Shown here: positions 17,510 to 34,846 of the stretch, piece by piece
Numbering within the stretch: the first letter of the stretch is position 1
Layout of the letters: each line of letters starts with the position of its first letter
DNA from: Burkholderia sp. Bp8992
GTDB taxonomy: Bacteria; Pseudomonadota; Gammaproteobacteria; Burkholderiales; Burkholderiaceae
Assembly: GCF_003853705.1 (NCBI RefSeq)
Contig: NZ_QTQI01000018.1
Span: 62,001-126,000 of the forward strand
Length of the DNA: 64,000 bases
Direction: 5' to 3'
Program-made: the position numbers and the translations under genes
Notes under the pieces: model-generated
The model's database searches: none
The model's input: the letters and a program-made list of their open reading frames with translations, nothing else
What the model was told of the DNA's origin: nothing

Positions 17510-17694
17510 TGAGGTGCGGCAGGAGCCTGCGTCAGAGAATATGTTGTGCGTGTGTGTGGCGTGTTCGTCCACAAGGCGTTTGGCGGAATTCTACCCTGTT
17601 CGATAGGGAAGCGCGCAGTCGTGATTGTGTCGAACCGTAACCCACTATAGACGTTCCAGCGCATTTTCGCGATTCGGCCGAATAGCTAAAGCCG

Positions 17695-32626: not shown

Positions 32627-32827
32627 CCGCGTGAACGCAGCCCTGTCAGCCTAGGGAAATCCCGGTTGAGTGTGGTGATCGGGGCGAGCAGGCGGAATCG
32701 GGGATGGATCGTGACGACCGTCGCGACTTGTCGTTCGTGAAGGTGACGGTGGATGAAATCCGGCGAGCGGCGCCGATTGGCAGGGTGGTATGCGTCGTGC
32801 GTGGACGTCGCGAGCGCGACGCATCGA

Positions 32828-32841
32828 TTCCGGCGCCGGAA
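32828..32841. repeat. 14-bp perfect palindrome repeated near tRNA-Leu spacers
   Basis: TTCCGGCGCCGGAA at 32828-32841 recurs as TTCCGGTGCCGGAA at 33320-33333. In both places it is preceded by ATCGA and followed directly by the terminator copy. It marks the outer edge of the duplicated tRNA-terminator unit. Confidence 0.6.
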
Positions 32842-32844
32842 ATG

Positions 32845-32874
32845 AAAAAAGGCCGGCTAGAAGCTGACCTTTTT
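32845..32874 (-). terminator. Terminator copy 0 (behind the structured pseudo-tRNA)
   Basis: Minus-strand AAGGTCAGCT / AGCCGGCCTT hairpin with T-run, near-identical to the terminators of the three tRNA-Leu genes. One change (G to A in the 5' arm) and a different flank distinguish it. Confidence 0.85.
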
Positions 32875-32883
32875 AAATACAGA

Positions 32884-32990
32884 TGGTGCCCAGGAGAGGA
32901 CTCGGTCACACGGGCGCGACCCCGGCTGCGCTTGCAAGCGCAGCCTTTCGAGTCCTCACGCAAAGCGCGCAGGCGCTTTGCTTCCTGGGC
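32884..32990 (-). other. Structured pseudo-tRNA-Leu element (tRNA acceptor ends, novel interior)
   Basis: Read on the minus strand, it begins GCCCAGG and ends CGAGTCCTC-TCCTGGGC-ACCA, identical to the tRNA-Leu(CAG) 5' acceptor strand and 3' T-arm/acceptor/CCA. The interior is not tRNA. It folds as closing helix GCCCAGGA/TCCTGGGC, hairpin GCAAAGCGC-CTGC-GCGCTTTGC, helix GAGGACTCG/CGAGTCCTC, and inside this a perfect 22-bp palindrome (32924-32945) and a GGTC...GACC hairpin. Almost every base pairs. It sits where a fourth tRNA should be, between terminator copies 0 and 1, with no promoter of its own. Confidence 0.75.
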
Positions 32991-32997
32991 TGAAAAT

Positions 32998-33030
32998 GAA
33001 AAAAGGCCGGCTAGAAGCCGACCTTTTTTA
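32998..33030 (-). terminator. Terminator copy 1 (tRNA-Leu copy 1)
   Basis: Hairpin GGTCGGCT-TCT-AGCCGGCC followed by TTTTTT on the minus strand, beginning 10 bp after the CCA end of tRNA-Leu copy 1. Confidence 0.9.
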
Positions 33031-33039
33031 TCAATCGAG

Positions 33040-33126
33040 TGGTGCCCAGGAGAGGACTCGAACCTCCACGATGTTGCCACCGCTAGGACCTGAACCTAGT
33101 GCGTCTACCAATTCCGCCACCTGGGC
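33040..33126 (-). tRNA. tRNA-Leu(CAG), copy 1
   Basis: An 87-nt class II tRNA including encoded CCA. Acceptor GCCCAGG/CCTGGGC, D-loop AATTGGTAGAC, anticodon stem-loop CTAGG-TTCAGGT-CCTAG giving CAG, variable arm CGGTGGCAACATCG, T-loop TTCGAGT. It is identical to copies 2 and 3. Confidence 0.97.
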
Positions 33127-33163
33127 ACGTTTTGCAGTGAGCTGCTTGCTGCAAAGAAGCGAA

Positions 33164-33191
33164 ATTATAGCGCGTCTTTCGGGGCTGTCAA
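33164..33191 (-). promoter_or_regulatory. Promoter of tRNA-Leu copy 1
   Basis: Minus-strand TTGACA (33186-33191), 16-bp spacer, TATAAT (33164-33169): near-perfect sigma-70 consensus. The leader between it and the tRNA is identical to that of copy 3. Confidence 0.88.
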
Positions 33192-33335
33192 CACTATTTG
33201 AGGTCGCGAACGAAAATAATTGATCGAGCGTGTTCGGGTGGGGCGGGCAGGGCGCACGAACTCGTTGCGGCGAGCCGAGCGTGAGTCATCGATATCGGTG
33301 TACGTGCTTGCGCAATCGATTCCGGTGCCGGAAAT

Positions 33336-33376: not shown

Positions 33377-33463
33377 TGGTGCCCAGGAGAGGACTCGAAC
33401 CTCCACGATGTTGCCACCGCTAGGACCTGAACCTAGTGCGTCTACCAATTCCGCCACCTGGGC
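33377..33463 (-). tRNA. tRNA-Leu(CAG), copy 2
   Basis: Identical to copy 1 over all 87 nt including CCA. Its leader differs from copies 1 and 3, and its -10 box is TAGAAT rather than TATAAT. Confidence 0.97.
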
Positions 33464-34759: not shown

Positions 34760-34846
34760 TGGTGCCCAGGAGAGGACTCGAACCTCCACGATGTTGCCAC
34801 CGCTAGGACCTGAACCTAGTGCGTCTACCAATTCCGCCACCTGGGC
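34760..34846 (-). tRNA. tRNA-Leu(CAG), copy 3
   Basis: Identical to copies 1 and 2 over 87 nt, CCA encoded. This is the first transcribed copy on the minus strand, separated from copy 2 by the orphan binding-protein gene. Confidence 0.97.

Follow-up and report, generated by a model that had tools for sequence, protein, structure and literature searches.

The window, by which we mean the whole stretch of 64,000 nucleotides from Burkholderia sp. Bp8992 that was analysed, contains three tRNA-Leu(CAG) genes, and a structured element is found behind only one of them, the gene at 33040-33126, beginning 49 nt past its end. The initial annotation had the element filling the place of a fourth tRNA-Leu; it is instead an add-on behind an intact tRNA gene, as is the case at 193 of 205 places in relatives. 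A motif scan of positions 32700-33250 yields a single promoter-like site, located upstream of the host tRNA. Terminator-like hairpins lie on both sides of the element; as the strict terminator scan lists the plus strand only, these two on the minus strand were identified by eye and with a looser rule. In detail, the following features were recorded (A4 and A5 are alignments described below):

33164..33191, minus strand: promoter-like site TTGACA-16-TATAAT, 12/12 match, upstream of the host tRNA
33040..33126, minus strand: host gene, tRNA-Leu(CAG) (ARAGORN, Rfam tRNA model)
32999..33030, minus strand: terminator-like hairpin and T run between tRNA and element
32884..32990, minus strand: the element, a 107-nt five-helix tRNA-linked repeat (fold; covariance model R1, 123.4 bits, the element being one of the 16 seed sequences of R1)
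32983..32990, minus strand: P1 5' strand, GCCCAGGA, partner strand 32888-32895 (covariation)
32960..32981, minus strand: P2, side hairpin of 9 bp with loop CTGC (both-side changes in 8/9 pairs in A4 and 9/9 in A5)
32950..32957, minus strand: P3 5' strand, GAGGACTC, partner strand 32896-32903 (covariation)
32924..32945, minus strand: P4, side hairpin, a perfect 22-nt palindrome with apical TGCA (fold; covariation; conserved loop)
32904..32921, minus strand: P5, hairpin with a conserved G-U pair (fold; covariation)
32884..32904, minus strand: tail, 21 nt equal to the 3' end of tRNA-Leu(CAG) including ACCA (repeat family D3)
32845..32875, minus strand: terminator-like hairpin and T run past the element, a near-copy of the terminator of the tRNA (repeat family D2, 85%)
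33377..33463, minus strand: second tRNA-Leu(CAG), without an element after it
34760..34846, minus strand: third tRNA-Leu(CAG), without an element after it

According to Pfam, genes for a ROK-family protein and for sugar-type ABC transport lie to one side, and those to the other side encode an NMT1-like substrate-binding protein, an RNB-domain protein, which we infer to be RNase R, and a SpoU methylase.

Structure of the element

Read along the minus strand, the element starts with P1 (8 bp), an unpaired A, P2 (9 bp), two bases and P3 (8-9 bp); the 5' strand of P3 is followed by P4 (9 bp), P5 (6 bp), the unbroken 3' strands of P3 and P1, and finally ACCA. The first 7 nt of the P1 5' strand equal the acceptor 5' strand of tRNA-Leu, and the tail is made up of the 3' strands of P3 and P1 together with the last base of P5. 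The nested arms that had been named before, GCCCAGGA/TCCTGGGC, GCAAAGCGC/GCGCTTTGC and GAGGACTCG/CGAGTCCTC, are all found, and the palindrome of 22 bp sits exactly where it had been placed. Other details had to be corrected. The element measures 107 nt and not 103, and the identity with the tRNA, given as 17 bp, extends over 21 nt that are common to four places and that equal the end of each tRNA-Leu(CAG) gene in the window. The hairpin of the GGTC...GACC type, said to pair on the minus strand through G-U wobbles only, does contain a G-U there, with A and C mismatched at this position on the plus strand, but this concerns a single pair. The terminator-like hairpin that follows the element is a near-copy of the one behind the tRNA (85%).

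The minus strand of the element folds with a minimum free energy of -71.5 kcal/mol, compared with a mean of -45.1 (sd 3.3) for shuffled sequences (z -8.1; 0 of 200 shuffles as low). The fold of the plus strand has a z of -6.0, and for comparison that of the adjoining tRNA one of -2.0. The element has neither cloverleaf nor anticodon, and it is passed over by ARAGORN and by the Rfam tRNA model, both of which report the neighbouring tRNAs. At gathering as well as permissive thresholds (E up to 10), Rfam gave no match on the element above any gathering score, the best by bits being sX14 with 20.4 against a cut-off of 80. As rttR of E. coli overlaps tpr, small reading frames were considered as well: closed ones of at least 15 codons occur in 83 of the 209 elements collected below, and the longest in the window element has 17 codons.

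Distribution within the Burkholderiales

BLAST searches with the element (E up to 0.001) gave matches in 42 of 65 genomes of the genus, often several per genome. As some of these matches were short or confined to the tail (the two in G040, for example, cover just the 21-nt tRNA tail and are no evidence of the element), genome counts were taken from a covariance model. In the relatives that were read, the same architecture is seen behind tRNA-Asp(GTC) and tRNA-Ser(GGA), each time with the tail of its own tRNA.

The covariance model R1 was built on 16 sequences and used with a threshold of E up to 1e-4. It matched 115 of 398 genomes of the family (8 of 25 genera), 22 of 399 genomes of the order (15 of 158 genera) and, in a class-wide draw, one of 369 genomes, that one being G001; since 9-10 candidates per genome were scored in these large searches, genomes without a match have to be read as soft negatives. 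Within the genus, 47 genomes had a match and 14 were listed without one, so that the distribution is patchy even there. A pattern scan of named species genomes returned at least 119 stretches with the element pattern, 80 of which entered the follow-up analysis. Judging by name, we take all of these 80 to be Burkholderiales; they include Burkholderia, Paraburkholderia, Trinickia, Cupriavidus, Ralstonia, Pandoraea, Herbaspirillum, Massilia, Pseudoduganella, Herminiimonas, Undibacterium and others, as well as bins named just to order or family. A plasmid collection gave matches in three Cupriavidus replicons, and there was no match among 50,697 phage records.

Of the 24 loci displayed by the order search, 18 entered the hit set; L312, L316, L317, L318, L319 and L320 were left out because of large inserts or because they were partial or degenerate. 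The degenerate copy L320 lies behind a tRNA-Thr(TGT). L312 and L317 carry large inserts in P4 and have kept the remaining helices, indicating that P4 tolerates growth at its tip.

Host tRNAs and the copied tail

The hit set contains 209 distinct hits, which correspond to 205 places, as four minus-strand hits (L148, L156, L157 and L164) are palindromic plus-strand hits read in reverse. At 193 of the 205 places, a tRNA gene of the same orientation lies within 1500 nt upstream, and seven anticodon types are represented among these hosts: Leu-CAG (93), Asp-GTC (66), Ser-GGA (11), Glu-TTC (10), Ser-GCT (6), Ser-CGA (6) and Arg-CCG (1). Among the 12 places with no upstream tRNA, five are so close to the end of the fetched stretch that 0-112 bases precede them, and seven have at least 514 bases; L306, L147, L124, L241, L211 and L184 are examples of a copy with no tRNA gene in at least 514 upstream bases. 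Such places may hold solo copies or copies that have outlived their tRNA.

The gap between tRNA and first copy is 39-53 nt for Leu (with one of 84 nt), 36-46 nt for Ser-GGA, Ser-CGA, Glu and Arg, 35-122 nt for Ser-GCT and 7-123 nt for Asp. Further copies follow at steps of about 150 nt, the extreme being L160 with seven copies in runs of two and five.

This arrangement is also what a small non-autonomous mobile DNA element might leave behind, if it entered at tRNA 3' ends, with core, copied tail and terminator behaving like an attR-type direct repeat and a folded single strand as the recombining form. The direct repeats of tRNA tail and terminator that flank the core, tandem arrays such as L160 with its steps of about 151 bp, the patchy distribution, the several unrelated tRNA hosts and the seven places with no tRNA upstream would all agree with it. 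However, no integrase or transposase was found among 27 proteins (20 of 39 ORFs at the three tRNA-Leu genes of G023 and seven neighbours in the window), the phage records contain no match, and at 193 of 205 places the element follows a tRNA in the same orientation, which speaks against such an origin. Tandem spread can be explained by homologous exchange between tRNA copies. We consider a mobile element, which is the main alternative, unlikely, also in view of the covariation treated below.

When the tail is compared with the host tRNA, at least 18 of 20 positions are identical at 138 of the 193 places (exact identity at 113), and fewer than 14 of 20 at 40. The latter group, which includes the Pandoraea-type elements and seven of the ten Glu-type ones, indicates that the tail is not indispensable. 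At L113, L116 and L119 and at Pandoraea loci such as L177, L212 and L215, all behind tRNA-Leu, P2 to P5 are kept and a GGCGCCG end replaces the tail. These GGCGCCG-ended elements, which occur in several species, are a tail-free subtype.

In the 151 tailed hits, the P1 5' strand pairs at 6.30 of 7 positions with its own tail compared with 3.74 for the tails of other hosts, and its own tail beats that of every other host in 124 hits. Pairing of P1 is poor (fewer than 5 of 7) in 16 of the 151, nine of them being Asp-type elements mostly from Massilia and Pseudoduganella. For P3, the values are 7.10 of 8 with its own tail and 6.00 of 8 with others, a contrast which is weaker because T stems resemble one another. 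Asp-type elements that have GGAGTGG facing CCGCTCC contain G-U intermediates.

A tail that is specific for its tRNA, together with an uninterrupted 3' strand that runs through P5, P3 and P1 to NCCA, much like the acceptor and T stems of a tRNA, could be the mark of a mimic acting in trans as a decoy, one that titrates an enzyme or toxin recognizing the acceptor/T-arm half. Anticodon and D arm are however absent, the Massilia type no longer pairs P1 and the Pandoraea type no longer has the tail, and we regard a mimic or decoy as quite improbable.

Covariation and the selected strand

Conservation of the helices was assessed in three alignments. A2, a plain MAFFT alignment of 16 sequences, has 95.3% of 633 cells paired and both-side changes in 21 of 40 pairs; controls with slid pairing reached 35-46%, and further pair types as numerous were reached by 101 of 500 shuffles. 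A4 consists of the 64 best-scoring hits (52 sources, 59 distinct sequences), with 96.6% of 2358 cells paired and both-side changes in 26 of 40 pairs, and A5 of 107 hits (90 loci, 104 distinct), with 94.8% of 4002 cells paired and both-side changes in 30 of 40; A4 was picked for high scores, and A4 and A5 were both fitted to the model, which favours the model. For A5, none of 500 shuffles reached any of five measures, and slid controls were 37-48% paired. The aligned sequences are related, and the counts are therefore not numbers of independent events.

The helices that have no origin in the tRNA show both-side changes in 9 of 9 pairs for P2, 6 of 9 for P4 and 3 of 6 for P5 (A5). In the same alignment, P2 is the strongest helix with 99.0% of cells paired and P1 the weakest with 85.8%. 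Strong covariation is thus seen in the helices, those not derived from the tRNA among them. Their conservation in relatives, the lack of which would have spoken for a scar according to the initial annotation, is thus clear in A2, A4 and A5.

An inverted duplication or recombination could indeed produce P1 and P3 strands like these, which repeat the tRNA end in inverted and direct orientation, and the element had also been considered as such a scar without function. Conservation throughout the order with compensatory changes contradicts this reading; the covariation already refutes it, and we attach a negligible probability to it. Covariation of the helices over such a long time also exceeds what scars of a mobile DNA element would need.

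Mismatches point to the strand under selection. In A4, G-U occurs in 92 cells and A-C in 15, with 66 cells of other mismatches; when one pair of P5 is left out, G-U still occurs in 36 cells compared with 15 for A-C. The conserved P5 pair is G-U in 56 of 59 rows of A4 and in 102 of 103 of A5. This excess of G-U over A-C indicates that the tRNA-sense strand is the selected one. Although the conserved G-U would be compatible with one chosen DNA strand in a mobile element as well, the selected strand probably acts as an RNA, single-stranded DNA being less likely; the early preference for an RNA of the minus strand over a DNA element is borne out to this extent by the sequences. Outside the helices, GAA before P4 is fixed in 58 of 59 rows of A4, and the apical TGCA of P4 is present in 45 of 59.

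Expression context

Between tRNA and element, a terminator-like hairpin is found in 149 of 156 gaps of at least 25 nt and in none of nine shorter gaps, and a terminator-like site lies within 70 nt past the element in 138 of 192 hits, with none in the other 54; these are raw counts, uncorrected for chance, under a rule looser than the strict scan. Promoter-like sites occur in 0 of 165 gaps compared with 85 of 163 stretches upstream of host tRNAs. In one locus of G457 (L323, L305), the elements begin 7 and 10 nt past tRNA-Asp genes, the second of which begins 16 nt after the first element. The elements of this locus should be part of the tRNA transcript, and elsewhere read-through would be the simplest source of element RNA.

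Terminator-like hairpins before and after many copies would also suit an insulator acting in cis, i.e. a fail-safe double terminator behind very active tRNA genes in which the fold serves as spacer. A spacer, however, has no need for covarying side hairpins, a UGCA loop or a conserved G-U pair, and nine copies lie less than 25 nt from the tRNA with no terminator-like site between, one of them between two tRNA genes. An insulator therefore appears very improbable to us.

Comparison with the E. coli TLRs

The E. coli TLRs have been known since 1978 and are described in the available text of PMC8144298 as being without known function. They comprise rttR/RtT at tyrTV, copies in the arg and lys operons, and RrA/B/F after 5S rRNA. 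In the same text, RrA/B/F are placed in three rRNA operons, in each case between the two terminators; they are produced by read-through and bind CsrA and Hfq, and the authors propose that the copied end of the TLRs is a signal for RNase E.

Like the element, the E. coli TLRs lie downstream of a tRNA gene (in their case also an rRNA gene) on the same strand, and tandem copies occur in E. coli and in the Burkholderiales alike. Each ends in 18-19 nt that repeat the 3' end of the host gene without a change, which compares with 21 of 21 for the window element. In K-12, we found 13 TLR-like copies in four of nine fetched loci (tyrTV, arg, lys and lysV), all with the last 18 nt identical, by a rule of 18 nt that misses the copy after 5S rRNA. 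In six of the 13 (four tyr, one arg, one lys), a strand pairs with the tail over 8-10 bp without a break, and these units fold around an internal helix of strand and tail with hairpins inside; the longest unbroken tail pairing in the other seven is 5-7 bp. Pairing of a strand with the copied tail is a feature that the available text of PMC8144298 does not mention for the E. coli TLRs.

There are also differences. R1 gave no match at E up to 10 in nine E. coli loci (50 kb) containing the 13 TLR-like copies, and the element is therefore classed with the TLRs by construction and not by descent. In the Burkholderiales core, P1 and P3 are separated by a side hairpin, a second hairpin is a palindrome with UGCA, and P5 bears the G-U pair, whereas the E. 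coli arg and lys copies have hairpins of the CGTTGC/GCAACG type and of the GGCCCGAAGGGC type; at L334, L337, L339 and L341, several of these lie inside the copied-tail helix. The host tRNAs differ as well, except for the Arg(CCG) type here and Arg(ACG) there. RtT RNA (RF00391), the Rfam family for the tyrT repeat, is not among the Rfam matches of the element (E up to 10) and has no match in G001, with the E. coli control being positive.

3'ETS-leuZ is another small RNA that is cut out of the primary transcript of a tRNA. It differs from the element in that, according to the available text of PMC8144298, it pairs to other small RNAs, and no copied tRNA tail is named for it there. The element itself is not mentioned in the available text of PMC8144298, PMC5688073, PMC4603805, PMC2864571 and PMC12306157. 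The Burkholderiales-1 motif, listed with no Rfam number in the available table of PMC2864571, might be the same element.

A possible role of the element

Taken together, we think that the element probably represents a new TLR-type family of structured RNAs in the Burkholderiales, which is made with the tRNA transcript, freed by tRNA processing and bound by an RNA-binding regulator. Several observations weigh against this reading, namely the terminator-like hairpin ahead of most elements and its absence behind 54 of them, the 40 poor tails, the 16 poorly pairing P1 strands and P1 as the weakest helix, the seven places lacking a tRNA, the patchy distribution and the seven E. coli copies with short tail pairing. 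Judging by the sequence evidence given above, the element would be co-transcribed with its host tRNA, and folding would hold the copied tail in P1 and P3. The enzymes that mature tRNA 3' ends may treat this copied tail like the end of a tRNA, so that tRNA and element would be separated and an RNA of roughly 107 nt set free, a release predicted from the identity of the tail and the parallel in E. coli. As the initial annotation had proposed, we thus infer a small RNA that is excised by the enzymes of tRNA processing; that it is made with the tRNA is our addition.

The complementary 5' strand would lock the copied tail in a duplex, which, as we propose, prevents it from pairing with the acceptor and T-arm strands of the tRNA itself. 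The amount of free RNA would track transcription of the tRNA and thereby, we suggest, growth. By analogy with RrA/B/F, which bind CsrA and Hfq, the free RNA would most likely bind an RNA-binding regulator.

A much broader interpretation is put forward tentatively and is, in our opinion, rather doubtful as a whole: an order-wide, apparently undescribed family of regulatory RNAs would reside on seven kinds of tRNA genes, its duplex with the tail of the host being kept by compensatory evolution, and this mimic of a tRNA end would report tRNA synthesis to a factor acting in trans, with the enterobacterial TLRs as a device of the same sort that arose independently or goes back very far.

A second TLR-type family in another order, recognizable separately from the first and marked by strong covariation and by a 5' strand that changes along with the host tRNA, shows that selection keeps the RNA fold. 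In addition, the concrete structure, the model R1 and the many natural variants provide a way to test the old question of the TLRs.

Further observations

In G023 (L293-L295), three tRNA-Leu(CAG) genes are present, two with an element and the third with a remnant of 28 nt. They flank blocks of 19 and 25 kb next to a gene of the RNase R type, and the cargo of these blocks comprises siderophore/NRPS genes as well as genes for chitinase and type II secretion. With this spacing, the tRNA-Leu genes resemble the borders of a genomic island, and the locus an insertion hot spot; no recombinase was found in the 20 of 39 ORFs scanned. Finally, elsewhere in the window, at 17531-17667, Rfam reports a match to h2cR with 159.5 bits.
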